Positions 3,085-35,519 of a stretch of 35,624 nt of DNA are shown one piece after another. Every line of letters starts with the position of its first letter. The first letter of the stretch is position 1. This stretch comes from a virus. The notes below the pieces were generated by a model. The model saw nothing but the letters and a program-made list of their open reading frames with translations. It was not told the DNA's origin and searched no databases. Position numbers and translations under genes: made by a program. The stretch covers positions 1-35,624 of the IMG/VR virus record IMGVR_UViG_3300027972_000034, one strand, 5' to 3'.

Positions 3085-3705
3085 TTATTCTTCTACTTGT
3101 ATAACTGGTACATCTTCCTGAGGAGCTGGGTTCTGGTACAATTTCTTGATAGCTACCTCTACATCAGGGTCTACCTGATACTTTAGCTTTGCCATCTCTA
3201 TTACTTCTTCATAAGAATGCTGAGAAATGATTTTGCTCAATTTCTCAAACTCAGGTGAATTCTTTCTTAACCAAGGTAAGTATGAAACAGAAGCCTTCTT
3301 CTTATCTTTAAGGGCTCCATCGGTGTCCTCATCAGTAACTAACCCTAGGATAGCAGTCAATGTATATCTTCTGGCATAGGTGATAGCTACTCCCTGTAGC
3401 TGAGAGACTGTCAAAATTTCTTTGCCTTCTCGGTTTAACTTTGGAGTCTCTTTAGGCAATGACAATCTAGAATGAATAGGCTCAACTCCTTCCTTGGTGC
3501 TAAATACAGTACAAATAATATCCACTCCATCCATTGAAGTATCAAAGGTATGGGTAAACCCAAGCTCATTTTCTTTTAATAATGGAGTTATTTTCTCAAC
3601 TATATTGTCTAAGCTGGCATACTTGTAATTGTTACCGGCTTTGTCTTTGTTTATAGTTCCAACTGCTTGCTGAAACTTTGCTAACTGCGGATATATTGTC
3701 TCCAT
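3085..3705 (-). CDS. erf: ERF-family single-strand annealing recombinase
   Basis: The 206-residue protein begins METIYPQLAKFQQAVGTINKDKAGNNYKYASLDNIVEKITPLL, the characteristic ERF-superfamily start. SQLQGVAITYARRYTLTAILGL and DEDTDGA follow at about residues 103-132. ERF proteins anneal complementary single strands during phage recombination and genome circularisation. The C-terminal third is variable, as is usual. Neighbours (SSB-tip protein, HTH proteins) and a promoter upstream at 4108-4136 make an early recombination operon. No Shine-Dalgarno sequence is present. Confidence 0.93.
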   Translation of the reverse strand: METIYPQLAKFQQAVGTINKDKAGNNYKYASLDNIVEKITPLLKENELGFTHTFDTSMDGVDIICTVFSTKEGVEPIHSRLSLPKETPKLNREGKEILTVSQLQGVAITYARRYTLTAILGLVTDEDTDGALKDKKKASVSYLPWLRKNSPEFEKLSKIISQHSYEEVIEMAKLKYQVDPDVEVAIKKLYQNPAPQEDVPVIQVEE

Positions 3706-3706
3706 A

Positions 3707-4060
3707 CTAATTGTGATAATTATGAATAATTTGGTCGATGTCTATGATTTCAGCTTCTACTAAGTCTCGATAAGTAGTAACCTCTAACCAAGAGTGAATC
3801 ATCCCTCGAACTCGGTTGATGTGCATAGTCTTGTTTGGTCTGGAATACAATGCAACATACACTGCAAATATTACCCAATTAGGAGTAGAATCAACCGATA
3901 TAGTCTCATCGAGAATTGTTTCGATGTTGGCTAAATTATTGTTGACTCTCTCATGTTCCTGCTGATACTCATCATCCTCATCTCGAGTGCTAACCTCGTG
4001 AATGTCGGCTTTCCAATTGTCGTTGTCTGAGTTGTAATAAGGATCTCCAAATGTTCTCAT
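3707..4060 (-). CDS. Hypothetical early protein, 117 aa
   Basis: I place the start at ATG 4060 (MRTFGDPYYNSDNDNWK...). The longest frame reaches back to 4129, but that start lies inside the promoter 4108-4136, upstream of the expected transcription start. The protein is acidic and polar up to residue 45 (TRDEDDEYQQEHERVNNN). A more structured C-terminal part follows (NWVIFAVYVALYSRPNKTMHINRVRGMIHSWLEVT). No family is recognised. It is the first gene of the recombination operon and ends one base before the ERF gene start. Confidence 0.65.
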   Translation of the reverse strand: MRTFGDPYYNSDNDNWKADIHEVSTRDEDDEYQQEHERVNNNLANIETILDETISVDSTPNWVIFAVYVALYSRPNKTMHINRVRGMIHSWLEVTTYRDLVEAEIIDIDQIIHNYHN

Positions 4061-4149: not shown

Positions 4150-4272
4150 CAAAAAAACCCCAAGCGAATGCTATAGGGTTCCTTTGAGATGGTTCAAATG
4201 AATATTTCCAAGAAGGGTAAAAATATTCTTGCATAAGTTTCAAGTACTCCACTAGTCACTATACCAGTGGTA
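4150..4272 (-). ncRNA. Candidate phage small RNA, about 120 nt
   Basis: A promoter (4306-4278) points at this gene-free stretch, and a rho-independent terminator closes it at 4180-4151. In between lie a 5' hairpin (GTA/TAC plus CCACT/AGTGG, 4273-4244) starting at the predicted +1, and a perfect 8-bp hairpin GAATATTT/AAATATTC (4228-4200) with a 13-base loop. No ORF of useful length is present. Promoter, discrete hairpins and terminator together are the classic layout of a trans-acting small RNA. The loop contains ACCCTTCTTGG, a possible pairing region. The target is unknown. Confidence 0.6.
4151..4180 (-). terminator. Rho-independent terminator of the small RNA and upstream operon
   Basis: Minus-strand AACCC (4180-4176) pairs with GGGTT (4160-4156), with an inner AGC-ATTC-GCT mini-stem, and is followed by seven T (4157-4151). 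It ends the candidate small RNA and any transcript reading through from the 4303-5543 genes. Confidence 0.85.
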
Positions 4273-4277
4273 CCATT

Positions 4278-4306
4278 AATATATCACATAAATATAAAAA
4301 AGTCAA
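4278..4306 (-). promoter_or_regulatory. Promoter of the candidate small RNA
   Basis: TTGACT (4306-4301), 17 bases and TATATT (4283-4278) on the minus strand. The -35 box overlaps the TGA stop of the 4303-4842 gene. The spacer differs from the TTTGTATA-type spacers of the other minus-strand promoters, so it may be regulated differently. Confidence 0.75.
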
Positions 4307-4842
4307 CTAGCTGACACCCCATCCAATAACTTACGATACAATGGCTTGGTGAACTTCATATACTTATCAGGATTCCGGTCTCGCAACTCCAATAAAGCCC
4401 TAAACTCTTGGTCAACATCACTGAACCTAGATAAACAAATTCCCCCAGCAGTAGTATAAGAAACACTAATTCTCCAAATGCCAAGGCTGTTATTATTGGA
4501 AATTGCTTCGCTAACAGCAAATACATGAGATAAGAAACTAGAATAATATGGAAATACCTCATTTAAACTATAATCTTTCATCGGTACCTCCTTAGCAGCC
4601 TTCATCCGAGAAAAAAATGACTTAGCCAAAGGTAGCAGTTCCTGATCTGTCATGTCCTGCAACTTTTTGCCCTCCTGCCTCACTTTATTCACCGACTCTA
4701 ATAATCTGGATAGGAATGTCTCGTCTCCAATGGTCACCACGCTTGGTAATTTGCCCTCCTGCCACTGTTTTAATATCTGACCACCCAGATAGTCGTCTTC
4801 AACTTTTAATGTCCCCAGAGACCTAATTTTTAAGATATACAT
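4303..4842 (-). CDS. Hypothetical protein downstream of replication initiator, 179 aa
   Basis: The 179-residue protein starts MYILKIRSLGTLKVEDDYLG at ATG 4842, two bases after the stop of the replication initiator gene. The opening resembles a small beta domain. The middle is helical and charged (LLESVNKVRQEGKKLQDMTDQELLPLAKSFF), with a mixed C-terminal part. I do not recognise it. Coupling to the initiator suggests a replication accessory role such as a helicase loader, but no Walker motif is present. The gene terminates at the promoter of the small RNA. Confidence 0.6.
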   Translation of the reverse strand: MYILKIRSLGTLKVEDDYLGGQILKQWQEGKLPSVVTIGDETFLSRLLESVNKVRQEGKKLQDMTDQELLPLAKSFFSRMKAAKEVPMKDYSLNEVFPYYSSFLSHVFAVSEAISNNNSLGIWRISVSYTTAGGICLSRFSDVDQEFRALLELRDRNPDKYMKFTKPLYRKLLDGVSAS

Positions 4843-4844
4843 AT

Positions 4845-5543
4845 TTACAATTCGTTAAAATTCTTATAATGGTTCGGTTTTACCTCATCAAAATTCAGAA
4901 ACTTGTCAATCTGCTCGTCTGACCTGAACAAAAAGTCAAAGTCTGCTACCCAGCCCCGGTCATTCTCTCCATTATGAAATTTGGAGCTCCTGAGATTATC
5001 AATCGCCTTTTTGCATTCCTCGATGCTATAAGTAGCCAACCTAGAGCTGACTTTCTTTAACCTATCCCTAGTAACACGATAACTCTTCCCAAACTTCTGA
5101 TTGAAATACTCTACTAACTCCTCAGTGCTATTGTCTACCCTATGACTACTACTATTATTCTTTCTTGTAATATTAATACTTGTATTATTATCCTCAACAA
5201 TTTTGTTGATACCCCCCTCAACAATTTTGTTGATACCCCCCTCAACAATTTTGTTGATACCTATCAATATTCGCCTAGAAACTTCGCTACCTTTCTCACT
5301 AGGAATAAGTTCCACATGAATAAACTTATGCTCTGCTAAAATACTGATAAGTCTGCCTACTGAATTCTTATGGATATTATAAATATCAGCAAAATACTGA
5401 TTCCTAGCCCAGCAATAGCCCTTCTTATTAGCTAAAGCAGTGATCTCACCATACAATAGCTTCGCATTGGCAGGAATATCAGCATACCTCACATGAGCTG
5501 GGATAACTGCATAATAATTTGGATGTTCTTTGTCTTCTTGCAT
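4845..5543 (-). CDS. Replication initiator / replisome organizer
   Basis: The 232-residue protein has an N-terminal winged-helix region (residues 10-90: HVRYADIPANAKLLYGEITAL, RNQYFADIYNIHKNSVGRLISIL), typical of phage replisome organizers and plasmid-like initiators. The C-terminal part (about 140-222: YFNQKFGKSYRVTRDRLKKVSSRL ... DRGWVADFDFLFRSDEQIDKFL) matches the conserved C-terminal domain of phage replication proteins. Between them is a GGINKIVE motif in three copies (about 96-118), which is the translation of 24-bp DNA iterons. Lambda O-type initiators similarly contain their own origin. Confidence 0.85.
   Translation of the reverse strand: MQEDKEHPNYYAVIPAHVRYADIPANAKLLYGEITALANKKGYCWARNQYFADIYNIHKNSVGRLISILAEHKFIHVELIPSEKGSEVSRRILIGINKIVEGGINKIVEGGINKIVEDNNTSINITRKNNSSSHRVDNSTEELVEYFNQKFGKSYRVTRDRLKKVSSRLATYSIEECKKAIDNLRSSKFHNGENDRGWVADFDFLFRSDEQIDKFLNFDEVKPNHYKNFNEL
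5193..5264. repeat. Three 24-bp iterons, probable replication origin
   Basis: The unit CTCAACAATTTTGTTGATAC plus four C repeats at 5193, 5217 and 5241 with an exact 24-bp period inside the initiator gene. The last copy diverges after GATACC. Each unit holds the inverted repeat CAACA-ATTT-TGTTG. Iterons inside an initiator coding sequence are a known origin arrangement (lambda O/ori). The adjacent DNA between 5142 and 5200 is very AT-rich and could be the unwinding region. Confidence 0.7.
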
Positions 5544-5600: not shown

Positions 5601-5978
5601 CTATTTTACTGGAGTAGTACACTTTGCTAATAACTCACCTCTTCCTTTCATCTCATCACTCCTGAAATGAGTTGCTAAATTGCCAACATTCATTCCATAC
5701 TGCTCCATCTTAGCTTCGTCTACTTCACCTGTGAATAACATGACAATAAGCTGGGTTGGGTCTTTAATGATATCGATGGTCTCATCAACAAACTTATTAG
5801 AAACCTCAACCGACTTACTGTCCAAATTAGCTAAAGCTATACATGAATCTAACTGTTCTCTTAGATTCTCAAGCTCCCTTGTCCTCTGTCTGTTCTGGAT
5901 GTACATTAACGCTCCAAATGCCATCCAAAGTACTATCAACAATGATATTATTATCACCGATTGCTTATGACTAAACAT
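5601..5978 (-). CDS. Single-pass membrane protein, spanin- or Rz-like in shape, 125 aa
   Basis: ATG 5978 is chosen because GGGAGGTG lies eight bases upstream, a strong Shine-Dalgarno in a window where most genes have none; a longer frame from 6014 lacks one. The product MFSHKQSVIIISLLIVLWMAFGALMYIQ... has one N-terminal transmembrane helix (8-28), a basic coiled-coil-like stretch (RQRTRELENLREQLDS) and a soluble domain. The TM-plus-coiled-coil shape resembles i-spanins, but the early location argues against lysis. It has its own promoter (6030-6058). Confidence 0.7.
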   Translation of the reverse strand: MFSHKQSVIIISLLIVLWMAFGALMYIQNRQRTRELENLREQLDSCIALANLDSKSVEVSNKFVDETIDIIKDPTQLIVMLFTGEVDEAKMEQYGMNVGNLATHFRSDEMKGRGELLAKCTTPVK

Positions 5979-8085: not shown

Positions 8086-8152
8086 AAGACATAAATATTA
8101 ACTGATAAGCGGTCTCACAGCAAGGGTAAAAAACTACCTCACTGACACTAGT
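8086..8152 (-). promoter_or_regulatory. Conserved 5' leader, copy 3
   Basis: The leader shares CTAGTGTCAGTGAGGTAGT and AATATTTATGTCTTATG with copy 2. Several A residues of copy 2 are G, T or C here, an intermediate state on the way to the strongly A-poor leader at 9033-9148. Confidence 0.6.
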
Positions 8153-8181
8153 ATTATACCATAAAGCTACACAAAAGTCAA
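8153..8181 (-). promoter_or_regulatory. Minus-strand promoter P6
   Basis: TTGACT (8181-8176), 17-base spacer TTTGTGTAGCTTTATGG and TATAAT (8158-8153). Confidence 0.87.
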
Positions 8182-8247
8182 GTCCACCCACCCCCCGGAA
8201 CCAAGACCACCGACAAAAAATTTTCTCAAAGACAAAAACAAATTTGC

Positions 8248-8264
8248 TTTGTGGGGGGTCAAAA
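8248..8264 (+). repeat. 17-bp G-run motif, copy shared with 33672-33688
   Basis: TTTGTGGGGGGTCAAAA occurs identically here and at 33672-33688, and its first 12 bases occur at 7229-7240. In the first two cases it lies in the 3' region of a beta-helix gene; in the third it lies at the start of a small coding frame. An exact 17-mer recurring by chance in 36 kb of AT-rich DNA is unlikely. Confidence 0.7.
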
Positions 8265-8266
8265 CT

Positions 8267-8292
8267 AAAAAACCCCCGGGAGCAACCCCGGG
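8267..8292 (-). terminator. Rho-independent terminator of beta-helix gene 2
   Basis: Minus-strand CCCGGG (8292-8287) pairs with CCCGGG (8280-8275) across a 6-base loop. Two more G and then six T (8272-8267) follow. It lies just after the stop of the 8307-9032 gene. Confidence 0.85.
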
Positions 8293-8306
8293 AGCAAGGA
8301 GGGTGA

Positions 8307-9032
8307 CTATCGCTGGTCACCACTCAAGATAGTGGCTCCACCGACATAGTCCGACCCAGTAACCACCGCACACCCAGCAAGCCGAGCCGACCCCTCGACC
8401 ACCGACTCACCACTGACAAAAGCACACCCACCGACCCACGCACTATCACGCACCACTGACTCACCACCGACAGTCGACTGCTCACACACCATAGCTGAGC
8501 CGGCAACCGACGCTCGGTCTTGCACCACCGCACCACCACGCACCACCGCAGACCCACTCACGCGAGCTAAGTCAGACACCTGAGAATCATCAGTGACAAG
8601 GGCATAACCGGAGATAACACCACCACGCACATAAGCACGCTCACGCACCACCGCACCATCACGCACCACTGCATCACCACCGACAGTAGCTGACCCAGCA
8701 ACCTTCGCACCATCACGCACCACCGCAGACCCAAAAACCGCAGCCTGATCAACCACCATAGCATTGGAGTCCACGCGAGCCGACTGACCCACAAAAGCAT
8801 CACCACCGACCCAAGCATCACCAATCACCACAGCATCACCAGCAACCCAAGACTCACCATGGTGAGAAAGGTTCCTCTCAGACTCAACAAAACCACCAAG
8901 ACTACCAGCCTCAGCAATGACACTCCCATCAGGAGCCAAAATATTTCTCAACGCCTCAACACGATAGGTAACCACACGCTGGCCACCAGCACTGACAACA
9001 AAACACTCAGAGGACAAAACAAACTTTTTCAT
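8307..9032 (-). CDS. Left-handed beta-helix (YdcK-like) protein, long paralogue
   Basis: The 241-residue protein shares the cap with the 7297-7758 product (MKKF..., VTYRVEALRNILAPDGSVIAEAGSLGGFVESERNLS, to about residue 57). It then carries roughly 28 hexapeptide-like repeats of the GxAxV / GDAVV / GSATV type up to the C-terminus, predicting a long left-handed beta-helix. Codon use is extreme: the coding strand is A-poor and rich in G and T, unlike any neighbour, so repeats are Val/Ala/Gly/Ser-heavy. Surface display or a trimeric transferase-like role is possible; no catalytic His is obvious. It is a single-gene unit with P7 and a terminator. Confidence 0.85.
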   Translation of the reverse strand: MKKFVLSSECFVVSAGGQRVVTYRVEALRNILAPDGSVIAEAGSLGGFVESERNLSHHGESWVAGDAVVIGDAWVGGDAFVGQSARVDSNAMVVDQAAVFGSAVVRDGAKVAGSATVGGDAVVRDGAVVRERAYVRGGVISGYALVTDDSQVSDLARVSGSAVVRGGAVVQDRASVAGSAMVCEQSTVGGESVVRDSAWVGGCAFVSGESVVEGSARLAGCAVVTGSDYVGGATILSGDQR

Positions 9033-9148
9033 AAGACATTAATATTATTGAATAACCGGACAAGACAGGACAAGGGAGGGAGGTAGCAACCGCAACGACA
9101 ACTCACATGACTATGGAGTCCGAGGAGCAACCCCCCACCACTAAGTAC
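9033..9148 (-). promoter_or_regulatory. Long 5' leader of beta-helix gene 2
   Basis: The final part ACCGGTTATTCAATAATAT plus TAATGTCTTATG matches the other leaders. The upstream part is G/T-rich and lacks the GTGTCAGTGAG block, as if overwritten by the compositional shift of this region. No Shine-Dalgarno sequence was found before ATG 9032. Confidence 0.5.
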
Positions 9149-9177
9149 ATGATACCATAGTACTGCACAAAAGTCAA
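9149..9177 (-). promoter_or_regulatory. Minus-strand promoter P7 (weak -10)
   Basis: TTGACT (9177-9172), 17-base spacer TTTGTGCAGTACTATGG and TATCAT (9154-9149). A second copy of the -35 flank, TTGACTTTTGTAC, lies 16 bases upstream (9193-9181) without a -10 box. Confidence 0.72.
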
Positions 9178-9179
9178 GG

Positions 9180-9735
9180 GGTACAAAAGTCAATGCAGGA
9201 GCCACCAAAAGACCACCGACAAAAGAAAGCAACCACCAAAAGGCACACAATAAAGGGTAACAACCACCACCCACCACCAGCAAGACAACCAGCAAGCCGA
9301 CAACTACCAGCAGGAGCAAGACAAGACAACCACCAGCTAGGGTGCAAGACTGCCCCGACAAGACAACCACCACCAGCAACCACCCAAAAGTAGCCACCAG
9401 CCGACAAGACAACCCACAACCCACCCACAACCGCAAGCACACCCACCCACAACCCACCACCGCAAGACAAGACATTAACCACCGACTGGCACCAAGACAC
9501 CACCCAGAAAAAACACCCCCGAGAAGCCCCAAAAATGACCCCAAAACAGGCAACCCCAAAAATGCCCCCAGAGAGAGGTCATTGGTCGAGAGTGGCAATG
9601 AGTGCTCACCACCCCCACCCCCGACAAGCCAGAGAGGCAAGAAGTCAAGCAGGAGAGCCACCCAGAAGTACCCCCAGCCCCAAAAAAAACAAAAAACCCG
9701 ATGCCCTCCGCCTGTGCAAAATGAGACACCCCTTA
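9180..9735. other. T-depleted, A/C-rich noncoding island
   Basis: Over 360 bases (9181-9540) I count only 14 T on the plus strand, about 4 percent, while A and C dominate with short recurring words such as GCAAGACAACCACC and CCACCCACAACC. The minus strand is correspondingly G/T-rich with G-runs (9608-9628, 9671-9685) that could form G-quadruplexes. Long frames exist on both strands only because stop codons need T (plus) or A (minus); their translations are low-complexity, so I call no gene. It lies between divergent promoters P7 and 9875-9903. Confidence 0.8.
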
Positions 9736-9874
9736 AATTTTCTGTAAATTTTCCAATCCCAAAAAAATGCAAAGTCGCAGGACTGGACTTGCTGTGCCAA
9801 AAAAAGTATCCCAAAAAATGAAAAGTCGTAGTTTGAAAAAATGGCTGTAGTATTTTTTGTAAAATTTTGAAGAC

Positions 9875-19102: not shown

Positions 19103-20023
19103 ATGAAGACTCAATTTAACTTTAAGTTATTAGCTAAAAGCACAGGTGGCAAAAAAGAAATAGAAGGGTATGCCTCTACCCCAGACCTAGATAGAGATAA
19201 TGACATTATCCCTACTGAGGTATTGGCAAAAGCGGTCGATGGATACCTGAAAATGGGAACTTTGCTATACGAACATGGATATGATCCAACCTATGCCAGA
19301 AAACCAGTTGGAAAACTAAATATAGCCAAAATAGATGATGAGGGAAGGCTATATGTCAAAGGTACTATATCCGACCAGTGGATATGGGAAAAAATAGAGC
19401 TAGGAGAACTTAAAGCCTTCTCAATCGGAGGTATGGCAGAATGGGAGGTGAGCCAAAAAGATGGCAAAGCAGTAGGGATTGCAAAAAGCATGGAAATACA
19501 CGAAGTTTCTATTGTAGCAATACCTGCAAATCCTAATGCGATGTTCTCTATCGCCAAGTCTTTGCAAAAAAGTTTGCAAGATGCAATAGAGGATAATAAT
19601 AAAAAAGTGTATAATGAGAATATACCAACTAATGATAAAGTTCTTATGGAAGAAATGATCAAAGGAATACAAGACAGACTTGATGCCTTTTTAACAAAAG
19701 ACAGCGAGAAAGTCGAATTGAAAAAAAGCCTTGAAGCAAAGACTAATGAAATGTCTGAACTCCAAGTTCAATTAGATGAACAGAAATCTAAAAATGAAGA
19801 GTTACAAAAAAGTTTAGATGAAACCATTGCTAGCAAAGAAGCTTTGACTGAAAACATTAAAGCTTTAGATGAAAAACTTACATCAGTAATTGCTACTAAA
19901 AAGTCAGCAAAGACAGATGATGAGTTAGACAAAAAAGCTGAAGATAAGTCAGAAGCTGATGAAGTAGCAAAGTCTGCAAAACAAATTGAAGACAAAGCTA
20001 AAGAATTAGGATTAATACTATAA
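19103..20023 (+). CDS. Prohead protease fused to scaffold-like coiled coil
   Basis: Residues 1-160 are an HK97-family prohead protease: KKEIEGYASTPDLDRDNDII, LLYEHG with His58, KAFSIGG with Ser107, and EIHEVSIVAIPANPNAMF. Residues about 185-306 are a Lys/Glu-rich coiled coil (ELKKSLEAKTNEMSELQVQL and following). It probably serves as the scaffold that the protease destroys during capsid maturation. No separate scaffold gene is present between it and the capsid gene, which supports the fusion. Confidence 0.93.
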   Translation: MKTQFNFKLLAKSTGGKKEIEGYASTPDLDRDNDIIPTEVLAKAVDGYLKMGTLLYEHGYDPTYARKPVGKLNIAKIDDEGRLYVKGTISDQWIWEKIELGELKAFSIGGMAEWEVSQKDGKAVGIAKSMEIHEVSIVAIPANPNAMFSIAKSLQKSLQDAIEDNNKKVYNENIPTNDKVLMEEMIKGIQDRLDAFLTKDSEKVELKKSLEAKTNEMSELQVQLDEQKSKNEELQKSLDETIASKEALTENIKALDEKLTSVIATKKSAKTDDELDKKAEDKSEADEVAKSAKQIEDKAKELGLIL

Positions 20024-20048
20024 ATAATAATTAAATAAGTAAAAAGAT

Positions 20049-21176
20049 ATGATTAAATATACTTACGGTTCCAATGGAGAAGTGTTGCTTAAAGGAAAAA
20101 TGCAACCAAGTTCAGATTCTTTCTCCCAGCAATTATTTGCTAAGTTAGAAAAAAGCTTAACTGGAAATCCAGAATTAGCTAACAAAGCATTGTCAATGTA
20201 CAAGGCTTTAGATACTCAAACTACTCTAGAAGGAAAAAATGTTGTAGAGGAAGTTTTATTTAGAGGAGTACTTGAAAGAGTAAAACTATTTGGTGAAATT
20301 GCACCTTTGTTTGATGACATTCAACTTCCATCTAATCTTTACAAACTACCTATCGAATTAGAAGGAGCTCAAGTCTTTCTAACTGGTGAAGCTACTCAGG
20401 ATGACAATAGTGTTACTGCTTCTGCTTCTACTCCACAGATTGGATTATCTACAATTGAAGCCTTCAAACTATCAGGAAAGTCTCTTACATCTGAAGAGTT
20501 GATTGAAGATTCAGTAATCGACATAATTCGATTTATAGTAGACCGACACGCTGAAGCTATTGCAAGAGGATTTGACCGAGCTATCATTGATGGAGATAAA
20601 GCTACTTCTCACCAAGACAACGATGTAACATCTGGAAGAGATGAGAGAAAAGCAGTCAATGGACTAAGAAAATTAGCATTAGCAGATGCCTCAACTAAAG
20701 TTGATGGAGGTACATTTGGAATAGACAAGATTTTTGATGCTCTAGGAAAAATGAAGAAATTTGGAGGTCCAAGGCAATTAAGCAATGTAGTCTTGATTAC
20801 AGGTCTATCAGTTTACAATAAGCTATTAGCTTTAGCTCTAAACACTACTAACAACAACCAAGTTGCATTCGACTTACAAAGTGGAGTACTAAGAAGTATT
20901 AATGGAATTAGAATCGTTGTATCTGAAGATGTTCGCCAAGACCTAAATGCTTCAGGAGTATACGATGGATCTACTACTACTAAGACTTATGCTCTATTAG
21001 TAAACACCAGCCAATTCATTACCGGAACTCGTTCAAGTGCTAGATTTGAGTCTGACAAAGATTATGACAGAGACCAAGTCAAGCTATACAGCCGAGTACG
21101 AAAAGGATTTGCTCCATTGTTTACTACTTCAGCAAGCAACCCAAATGTTGTAGCAATCTACAATATAACATCCTAA
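20049..21176 (+). CDS. Major capsid protein (HK97 fold)
   Basis: The 375-residue protein follows the protease gene as in HK97-type modules. It has a helical N-terminal region (residues 1-70, the part usually removed or acting as delta domain), the E-loop-like stretch GEIAPLFDDIQLPSNLYKLPIELEGAQVFLTGEATQ, and a C-terminal domain with NGIRIVVSEDVRQDLNASG and DYDRDQVKLYSRVRKGFAPLF. These are features of phage major capsid proteins. A 13-bp hairpin follows the stop. Confidence 0.93.
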   Translation: MIKYTYGSNGEVLLKGKMQPSSDSFSQQLFAKLEKSLTGNPELANKALSMYKALDTQTTLEGKNVVEEVLFRGVLERVKLFGEIAPLFDDIQLPSNLYKLPIELEGAQVFLTGEATQDDNSVTASASTPQIGLSTIEAFKLSGKSLTSEELIEDSVIDIIRFIVDRHAEAIARGFDRAIIDGDKATSHQDNDVTSGRDERKAVNGLRKLALADASTKVDGGTFGIDKIFDALGKMKKFGGPRQLSNVVLITGLSVYNKLLALALNTTNNNQVAFDLQSGVLRSINGIRIVVSEDVRQDLNASGVYDGSTTTKTYALLVNTSQFITGTRSSARFESDKDYDRDQVKLYSRVRKGFAPLFTTSASNPNVVAIYNITS

Positions 21177-22158: not shown

Positions 22159-22560
22159 ATGGCAAAATCAGTCAAAATAGATTTCTCAGATATTCGTAAG
22201 TTTGAAAAAGCTACCAGAGAAGCTATTAAAGATAATGTAGATTACGAAGCTAAAGGATTATTGCAAGCAACCACATTAGTTCACAGAGAAGCTGTAAATA
22301 ATACTAAGGCAGGAGTAAAATATATAAAAGGGATTCATAAAACAGGAAACTTAAGAAAATCTCTTACCTTTGAAATTGGAAATGGTGAAGGGACTATCTT
22401 TACAGATGGAAGAATTGTATACCCAAAATTTGTTGAATTTGGTACAGTTAAAATGCGAGAGCGACCATTTCTAACTATTGCTTTAGCAGAGAACCGAAAA
22501 AAGATAGATGAAATATTTGATAAAATAATTAAAAAACAGGTTAAAAAAATGCAAGTATGA
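22159..22560 (+). CDS. HK97 gp10-like tail-neck protein
   Basis: The 133-residue protein starts MAKSVKIDFSDIRKFEKATREAI. It has KGIHKTGNLRKSLTFEIGNGEGTIFTDGRIVYPKFVEFGTVKMRERPFLTIAL, where the VEFGT...RPF motif defines the HK97 gp10 family. These proteins join head and tail. The gene overlaps the tail terminator gene by four bases. Confidence 0.9.
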   Translation: MAKSVKIDFSDIRKFEKATREAIKDNVDYEAKGLLQATTLVHREAVNNTKAGVKYIKGIHKTGNLRKSLTFEIGNGEGTIFTDGRIVYPKFVEFGTVKMRERPFLTIALAENRKKIDEIFDKIIKKQVKKMQV

Positions 22561-31408: not shown

Positions 31409-31932
31409 TGGCTTGTGAAATAAAAGCTACAATTGAACAGCAAGATATAAAAGCTACTTTATCTGACCAGACTATAAAAGCTGATGTCAATGCTATAAAG
31501 GTGCCTTATTATGGACAGATGTATAATCAGACTCAGCAGACTGTAGATATAATTACACAGGGAGTATATGTACCAATGAATATAACTGGAACTTTTGATA
31601 CTGCTAATGCACAGGGAACAGTCGCACCTACTACAGGTACTTTTGGAATAAAGAATATATCTGGAAAAACCCTTAGATTTATGGTAATTGCAACAGCTGA
31701 CCTCCAAATAACTAATAACAGAACAACTGGCTTAAGACTAGCTGTAAATGGAGTAGCATTAACTGAGACTACTTGTCAGGCTCAAACTGGAAACCATAAT
31801 CTAGCTAAGGTAATGACACAATGGATGGTTAATCTACCTAATAATGGTGAGGTTACATACTTATTGGCTAACATATCCTCTGCTGCAGATATAATTGTAG
31901 ACCGTGCTAAAATAGTAGCGGTTATGGTATAA
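31408..31932 (+). CDS. Fibre- or spike-like trimeric protein, 174 aa
   Basis: The 174-residue protein has a short N-terminal repeat (KATIEQQDIKATLSDQTIKADVNAIK) and a beta-rich C-terminal domain (GTFDTANAQGTVAPTTGTFGIKNISGKTLRFMVIATADLQITNNRTTGLRLAVNGV...) with the jelly-roll pattern of phage head or tail fibre tips. The IKAT/IKAD repeat resembles a trimeric stalk. It ends at the extended -10 element that precedes the noncoding RNA candidate. Confidence 0.62.
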   Translation: MACEIKATIEQQDIKATLSDQTIKADVNAIKVPYYGQMYNQTQQTVDIITQGVYVPMNITGTFDTANAQGTVAPTTGTFGIKNISGKTLRFMVIATADLQITNNRTTGLRLAVNGVALTETTCQAQTGNHNLAKVMTQWMVNLPNNGEVTYLLANISSAADIIVDRAKIVAVMV

Positions 31933-31933
31933 T
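31925..31933 (+). promoter_or_regulatory. Extended -10 promoter before noncoding RNA 1
   Basis: TGGTATAAT is a consensus extended -10 element (TG-n-TATAAT) overlapping the TAA stop of the preceding gene. No clear -35 box is present. Transcription would start near 31940. Confidence 0.6.
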
Positions 31934-31936
31934 ATA

Positions 31937-32097
31937 AATATTCCTATGCTGATTTATAACCCAGCTATAGGTTGAGGAAGTACAACTCGTAAAACAGCCG
32001 AGCGTAAAGCCTATAGAAGGTGTGGTTATAGCCGATAATATAGGTAGCAACAATTAGGGGAAATTGACCGATAGGACAAAAGTACCCTTTTTGTTTT
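31937..32097 (+). ncRNA. Structured noncoding RNA candidate 1
   Basis: This stretch has no ORF and several helices: CCTAT-GCTG pairing with CAGC-TATAGG (31943-31972), CTATAGG (31966-31972) alternatively with CCTATAG near 32010, and CTCG/CGAG within 31984-32005. It closes with a terminator (32076-32097), stem ACAAAAG/CTTTTTGT plus T-run. An extended -10 sits at 31925-31933. The alternative pairing of CTATAGG suggests a switch. It could be a phage small RNA or a riboregulator; I do not recognise a known family. Confidence 0.55.
32076..32097 (+). terminator. Terminator of noncoding RNA 1 and the structural operon
   Basis: ACAAAAG (32076-32082), loop TACC and CTTTTTGT (32087-32094) with one bulged T, followed by TTT. 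The stem is AT-rich and only moderately strong. Confidence 0.55.
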
Positions 32098-32131
32098 GAC
32101 TATATTCCCGACACCAAGAGAATGGTTTGCC

Positions 32132-33913: not shown

Positions 33914-33919
33914 TATAAT
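33911..33919 (+). promoter_or_regulatory. Extended -10 promoter before noncoding RNA 2
   Basis: TGATATAAT is an extended -10 overlapping the TGA stop of the preceding gene, the same arrangement as at 31925. No -35 box was found. Confidence 0.55.
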
Positions 33920-33925
33920 ACATAT

Positions 33926-34064
33926 AGCTATTAAGTTTCAAATCTTTAGACTGATGTCTAACTGGTGTAAACCTAGAGCTTAAGGCTGACAAGATTCACA
34001 AACTGGAATGGGGTAACCCGCTCGACAAATTCCTACAACTAGAAGATTCTGGGTGTAGGTTTTT
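33926..34064 (+). ncRNA. Structured noncoding RNA candidate 2
   Basis: No ORF is seen. Helices include TTAGAC-TGAT-GTCTAA (6 bp), GGT-GTAA-ACC and GGG-GTAA-CCC (both with GNRA tetraloops), a longer pairing GAGC...GCTC around the second, and a terminator CCTACA/TGTAGG (34032-34059) followed by TTTTT. Two GNRA loops and a terminator in 140 bases indicate a compact folded RNA. It lies between the lysis genes and a small ORF. Similarity to a known class was not recognised. Confidence 0.58.
34032..34064 (+). terminator. Terminator of noncoding RNA 2
   Basis: CCTACA (34032-34037) pairs with TGTAGG (34054-34059), with an inner AGAA/TTCT pairing, followed by five T. Confidence 0.72.
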
Positions 34065-34068
34065 GTTT

Positions 34069-34080
34069 TATATGCTATAC
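34069..34080 (+). promoter_or_regulatory. Extended -10 promoter of the 34108 gene
   Basis: TATGCTATACT contains TG-C-TATACT, an extended -10 element, 30 bases before ATG 34108. No -35 box was found. Confidence 0.5.
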
Positions 34081-35119: not shown

Positions 35120-35140
35120 AATCAGTGTTTGAGATATAAA

Positions 35141-35279
35141 GTTCTCAGTGGAGGAGACAAGGATTTGCACCTTGTATAATATACCTGCCGAAAGCAAGAC
35201 GGTATATCTTGAAATGTTAATTCATTCGAAACCTCTTGCACCAAGCGTCTACCTATTCCGCCACCCCTCCATTGAGAAC
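35141..35279 (-). ncRNA. tRNA-like element 1 (tRNA-Leu-like, extended acceptor stem)
   Basis: Read on the minus strand: 5' acceptor GGAGGGG (35270-35264), D-arm GCG...CGC with GGTAGA in the loop (class II tRNA type), a variable interior (35243-35176), T-arm ACAAGG-TGCAAAT-CCTTGT (35175-35157) and 3' acceptor CTCCTCC. No anticodon arm is recognisable. Flanking GTTCTCA/TGAGAAC pairs continue the acceptor helix to about 16 bp and further A/T pairs to about 22 bp. No CCA is encoded. The interior holds CTTG-GTG-CAAG and ATATACC/GGTATAT hairpins. Confidence 0.7.
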
Positions 35280-35304
35280 TCTATATTTTAATGTGCTGTA
35301 TAAA

Positions 35305-35494
35305 GTTCTCAACGGAAGGGACAAGGATTTGCACCTTGTATGAAAGAAAGCAAGTAATCCTGTTATCAAAGCCATATACCATAGAGTTGGCTTCACCCTA
35401 TAAGGACTTTCAGTTATCTAAGTAATAAAAACATTTATCCTTTTTATGTTTTATCTTTAGCGTCTACCTATTCCGCCACCCCTCCATTGAGAAC
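35305..35494 (-). ncRNA. tRNA-like element 2 (same frame, different interior)
   Basis: The 48 bases 35459-35506 (5' acceptor, D-arm and upstream spacer) are identical to 35244-35291 of element 1, and the T-arm is the same. The interior (35458-35340) is longer and unrelated: a near-perfect long hairpin CTAAAGATAAAACAT/ATGTTTTTATTACTTAG and AAGCCA...TGGCTT. The 3' acceptor CCCTTCC and flank TTGAGAAC pair with the shared 5' side to give about 16 continuous pairs, one G-T and a G-T at the discriminator position. The insert is too short for a group I intron. Confidence 0.7.
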
Positions 35495-35519
35495 TCTATA
35501 TTTTAAAGAACTGTATAAA

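Follow-up and report, generated by a model that had tools for sequence, protein, structure and literature searches.

A predicted small-RNA gene at an operon border of a tailed phage, with a candidate antisense target in the bordering operon

The locus and its operons

The window is a whole IMG/VR record of 35,624 bases, that of a tailed phage with genes for a terminase, a portal, a major capsid protein and a tape measure, and with a GC content of 35%. Its replication and recombination genes lie on the minus strand at 1-9 kb, and it is from these genes that the label 'early' is derived. A block at 8090-9870 that is very G-rich on the minus strand and encodes hexapeptide-repeat-like proteins is unlike the rest of this phage in composition. 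Duplicated leaders form a family on the minus strand (9177-9020, 8181-8085, 7851-7750 and 7163-7070), each following a promoter of the TTGACTTTTGTATA class. They resemble each other in the layout ACTAGTGTCAGTGAG...GATTATTTAATAATATT...ATG, and some precede repeat proteins or small genes.

Two neighboring minus-strand operons frame the unit described here. The first is read from a promoter at 6058-6030 (TTGACT-17-TATTAT). Its first gene, 5601-5978, encodes a 125-aa protein with an N-terminal hydrophobic stretch, for which neither a family match nor a homologue was detectable. The second gene (4845-5543) has PHROGs matches to replication initiation and DnaD-like helicase loader proteins, and the third (4303-4842) has no family match. 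Inside the replication initiator gene, at 5195-5262, are three tandem copies of a unit with CCCTCAACAATTTTGTTGATA, possible origin repeats. The second operon has its promoter at 4136-4108 and contains gene 3707-4060, the Erf recombinase gene (3085-3705) and more genes downstream.

A unit with its own promoter and terminator

The small-RNA unit fits exactly between the two operons, on the minus strand: the end of the replication operon is the start of the small-RNA promoter (4306-4278), whose -35 element TTGACT (4306-4301) overlaps the TGA stop codon (4305-4303) of gene 4303-4842. A spacer of 17 with a TG element leads to TATATT at 4283-4278. The window has six matches to the pattern TTGAC[AT]-N14-TG-N-TA[TA]N[AT]T, against a mean of 0.05 in dinucleotide shuffles. 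The predicted RNA starts at about 4273-4271 and ends at about 4151, a length of about 121-123 nt. At its 5' end is a hairpin (4270-4249) of eight pairs and a loop of six that appears in both the minimum-energy and the centroid structure. A middle hairpin follows at 4228-4200, with a perfect 8-bp stem and a 13-base loop; the minimum-energy fold adds three pairs (A-U and G-U), leaving a 7-nt apical loop, CCCUUCU, at 4217-4211. The unit closes with an intrinsic terminator at 4186-4150 (-17.7 kcal/mol taken alone) with seven T at 4157-4151.

A sequence-only reading of this stretch had proposed a complete small-RNA gene of about 120 nt between two operons, with a TTGACT-17-TATATT promoter whose predicted start is the base of a 5' hairpin, a middle hairpin with a perfect 8-bp stem and a 13-base loop, and a strong seven-T terminator. 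Each of these elements was found in place, with the predicted start at the base of the 5' hairpin. The promoter spacer does differ from the TTTGTATA class, as that reading remarked, adding that the unit may be expressed at another time. The proposal of a small-RNA gene between the two operons is well supported, with promoter, fold and terminator all beyond chance. The same reading held the unit to be without an ORF. Taken literally this is wrong, since a 33-codon frame begins with an ATG at 4233. It crosses the terminator and reaches the next promoter without meeting a stop inside the predicted RNA; the frame is not a credible gene, and in that sense the statement stands. The unit is intergenic, has its own promoter and intrinsic terminator, and contains no credible coding sequence, as is usual for a small regulatory RNA.

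The 123-nt RNA folds at -36.0 kcal/mol, compared with -21.8 +/- 3.1 for shuffled sequences (z about -4.5; none of 200 as good). Without the terminator z is only -2.2, so that much of the fold signal is the terminator. The RNA has no Rfam match at the gathering score. Two structured intergenic stretches of the plus strand, 31920-32110 and 33915-34075, are likewise without an Rfam match; a terminator-like hairpin, CCTACAACTAGAAGATTCTGGGTGTAGG-T5, closes the second.

The unit might simply be where the upstream operon ends, a terminator for genes 5601-4303 preceded by a weak or unused promoter-like sequence. The modest fold signal outside the terminator agrees with this, as does the terminator's position 117-153 nt past the stop codon of 4303-4842, where it is the sole terminator-like structure seen for that operon. 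We consider it unlikely, because the promoter pattern is far above chance, its TTGACT/TG/TATA layout is common to the other promoters of the phage, and the complementarity described below would be left unexplained. A different role for the terminator is conceivable: transcripts from 4306 could mostly stop there, with some signal allowing read-through into 3707-4060 and erf, making the unit an attenuated leader of the next operon. The terminator does lie directly before that operon on the same strand, and read-through would feed it. Two observations make such attenuation very improbable: the next operon has a strong promoter of its own, 14 bases past the T7 tract, and no competing antiterminator is predicted, the same two hairpins forming when the 3' arm is blocked.

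Complementarity to the leader of gene 5601-5978

The apical loop CCCUUCU is the exact complement, over 7 nt, of the Shine-Dalgarno sequence AGAAGGG (5997-5991, minus strand) of gene 5601-5978. The expectation of the sequence-only reading that the loop is available for target pairing is therefore well supported, while the likely target itself, the leader of this gene, was absent from that reading. Four complementary blocks (8, 7, 9-10 and 6 nt) extend over the leader, Shine-Dalgarno sequence and start codon. In the small RNA the antisense region is 4237-4187 (minus), carried by the loop and both arms of the middle hairpin, and comprises 4187-4194 (AACCAUCU), 4211-4217 (CCCUUCU), 4217-4226 (AUAUUUUUAC) and 4232-4237 (CUUAUG). 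The target site is 6016-5964 (minus): a leader block at 6016-6009 (AGAUGGUU), AGAAGGG, GUAAAAAUAU at 5986-5977, which reaches the start codon, and CATAAG at 5969-5964, which is codons 4-5. The target lies 1.7 kb from the small-RNA gene.

At -40.2 kcal/mol, the predicted duplex with the 5601 start region ranks first among 3549 windows of 70 nt taken from both strands of the genome (mean -14.4, sd 4.6). None of 3000 shuffles of either partner equals it. Among the 51 start regions 5601 is best by a wide margin, the next reaching -21.0, and none of 1500 shuffled RNAs attains such a pairing on any of the 51. Counting the folding costs of both partners leaves an interaction energy of -22.8 to -24.5 kcal/mol; the next gene reaches only -12.6 to -13.3. 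Intergenic controls were also run. On raw duplex energy the G-rich block at 8.1-9.9 kb and the duplicated leaders score below -40; this measure alone is unspecific, and a per-segment specificity score was used instead. That score, applied to about 330 intergenic segments lying outside the G-rich block, gave a more specific best target only to opposite-strand copies of duplicated genes or leaders. The RNA thus has significant complementarity to one specific leader, including its Shine-Dalgarno sequence and start codon. This multi-block match, like the promoter, the stable fold and the terminator, is seen directly in the sequence.

C-rich loops are typical of many Gram-positive small RNAs, and CCCUUCU resembles them. 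The RNA could accordingly be real and act mainly on host mRNAs, with its loop as a general anti-Shine-Dalgarno sequence; few genes of this phage have a Shine-Dalgarno sequence, which would suit host targets. A general anti-Shine-Dalgarno loop has no need of the three further blocks that match the 5601 leader, and we regard this explanation as distinctly unlikely.

The reading that we prefer, at a probability of roughly 0.6, is that of a free-standing small-RNA gene whose product acts in trans, by pairing with the leader at the 5' end of the bordering operon (5601-5978, the replication initiator gene and 4303-4842). Given the perfect complementarity between loop and Shine-Dalgarno sequence, the simplest model begins with nucleation of the exposed CCCUUCU on AGAAGGG, upon which the hairpin would open and its arms pair progressively with the blocks to either side. 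The duplex would then cover the ribosome-binding site and start codon of 5601 and block ribosome access; it would probably be cleaved, adding mRNA decay to the block of translation. Output would fall for gene 5601, perhaps also for the replication gene behind it, and for the whole operon. From expression of the RNA to repression, these steps beyond complementarity are ones that we infer. The reverse-complement match to a ribosome-binding region makes the RNA probably a built-in brake on the replication operon. The terminator at 4186-4150 would also end the upstream operon's own transcript. With the small-RNA gene placed behind the last gene of that operon and the terminator common to both, the circuit would be a negative feedback that keeps early expression of the replication genes in check. 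The benefit of repressing 5601 is a guess, as its protein has no known function or detectable homologue.

An alignment of the plus strand of the small-RNA gene with the 5601 region extends between the -10 box and codon 5 and scores 47, compared with 24.7 +/- 4.3 for shuffled sequences (1 of 2000 as good). This suggests, as a possible origin of the gene, an inverted and since diverged copy of the leader that its RNA now opposes. The predominance of opposite strands of duplicated leaders and genes in the intergenic control fits the inverted alignment. Such an origin allows the complementarity to be a functionless relic of the copying, a possibility favored by the extent of the alignment and by the duplication, in direct orientation, of other leaders of this phage. 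It is nevertheless quite improbable in our view: the copy is oriented such that it would be transcribed as part of an RNA that has a promoter and a terminator of its own, and the Shine-Dalgarno, start-codon and leader blocks have been kept while the spacers drifted, the loop remaining an exact Shine-Dalgarno complement. Judged from sequence, we have a credible small-RNA gene with a statistically supported, specific predicted target in the operon that it borders.

Relatives, a parallel unit and known systems

No homologue of the small-RNA unit and no close relative of the phage were found. The nearest named terminases are those of Cellulophaga phages (53% identity), and nothing beyond the terminase was found in common between the window and the Cellulophaga phage loci fetched. 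A terminase profile was rejected as a route to relatives: it led to phages of at most 54% identity with almost no other early genes in common. Nothing close came from scanning with 4303-4842, Erf or the terminase one protein at a time, and the loop sequence as a DNA probe gave one chance match in viral_contigs, to an unrelated GC-rich contig. Two phages were useful for comparison. G380, found by a capsid search, has syntenic structural proteins that are 37-76% identical. G382 was found by a profile of gene 3707-4060, whose protein is 41-54% identical in relatives; the window capsid protein has no match in G382. The unit is absent from the syntenic position in both phages, which are too distant for the unit to be aligned, and the part of G380 that was read showed no such unit. 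The 5601-5978 protein has no BLASTP homology to the hydrophobic-start proteins of G382 and G380.

Three further observations concern the window and two other loci, L103 and L106. A near-identical stretch, TTGACTCG.AAGAGTATTATTATTAAATTAAACATATTAGA, occurs at 35112-35080 of the window and at 3021-2980 of L103 (both minus), kept though the proteins of the two phages are only about 40-75% identical. Degenerate or interrupted tRNA-Leu-like sequences (GGAGGGGTGGCGGAATAGGTAGACGC ... CAAGGTGCAAATCCTTG) with long 5'/3' pairing flanks lie at 35139-35290 and 35310-35500 of the window (minus) and at 6670-6960 of L106 (plus); ARAGORN does not call them even with introns allowed. Leaders at L106 5450-5281 and L103 6180-6010 (minus) have in common the motifs AGAC.GC.GAAGTCT and ACAAAATAACTTGAATT plus a terminator-like hairpin and may be a regulatory RNA; the gene behind them is the rep-like one in L106 and another, small gene in L103.

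As a host fingerprint the promoter found no viral match and seven scattered genome matches, mostly Firmicutes. One of the promoter-matched genomes has repeated T4SS_pilin proteins, of a kind known from Patescibacteria, and another genome of the same phylum as this one encodes a distant homologue of a tail protein (26% identity, E 8e-33). This is only a weak hint at the host.

G382 has a 91-nt unit of its own (22396-22486; z -3.3) just before its early operon, in which an extended -10 promoter is followed by a hairpin, an unpaired linker and a terminator. It looks unrelated to the small RNA of the window, analogous but non-homologous. The linker, AATAACTCGATAA, can pair without a mismatch with 13 nt of the leader of gene 24662, which is homologous to 3707-4060 of the window. 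The 9-mer ATCGAGTTA, which tops an unsupervised list of 9-mers in G382 leaders, occurs four times in the 32.5 kb of G382, against 0.12 expected: 23-28 nt before the start codons of 22623, 24662 and 19933-20298, and, as its complement, in the unit. By interaction energy the unit ranks gene 24662 first and 19933-20298 second. Both features recur in 12 of 5000 trials with shuffled RNAs (p about 0.002), a moderate statistic. The G382 unit is a parallel case and not proof of descent. A broader idea, which we offer tentatively and think rather doubtful, is that in this group of uncultivated phages, possibly of Patescibacteria, small antisense RNAs arise repeatedly at operon borders, partly by inverted copying of leaders, giving each phage its own fast-evolving regulator of early genes, with one target in the window and three genes in G382.

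The general kind, phage-encoded antisense RNA, is already known. The lambda OOP RNA (pO-oop-tO) is likewise a short phage transcript that has a promoter and terminator of its own, lies beside a replication gene and is antisense to a phage gene (PMC5869508, PMC12197685). OOP is encoded in cis, opposite its target and with perfect complementarity, whereas the window RNA matches a start region in interrupted fashion and, because that target is 1.7 kb away, is not of the OOP cis-antisense type. The sar RNA of phage P22 also differs from it in being encoded in cis, within its target operon, with perfect complementarity. The two are alike as phage antisense RNAs for which pairing blocks (in our case would block) translation initiation of a phage gene (PMC12197685). 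Limited, possibly discontinuous complementarity to the 5' region of a membrane-protein mRNA is found in the type I antitoxin OrzO (target zorO), for which 17 discontinuous pairs are enough (PMC3919570). The resemblance to type I antitoxins stops at the target, which in the window lies in a replication operon and has no known toxicity; at 125 aa, with a long non-hydrophobic part, its protein is unlike a short hydrophobic toxin of under about 60 aa. VpdS of VP882 and PreS of lambda are, as predicted here, phage-encoded, independently transcribed and trans-acting (PMC12197685). They differ in being Hfq-dependent and described mainly on host targets, whereas the predicted target of the window RNA is an operon of its own phage. 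Few phage small RNAs have a specific target in the replication operon of the phage itself, and most of these belong to E. coli-type phages. To these the window RNA would add a case with a predicted target, predicted pairing blocks and a possible origin by inverted copying of the target's leader. The parallel in G382 suggests that such regulators may be common and have been missed, possibly because their sequences are not conserved between phages.
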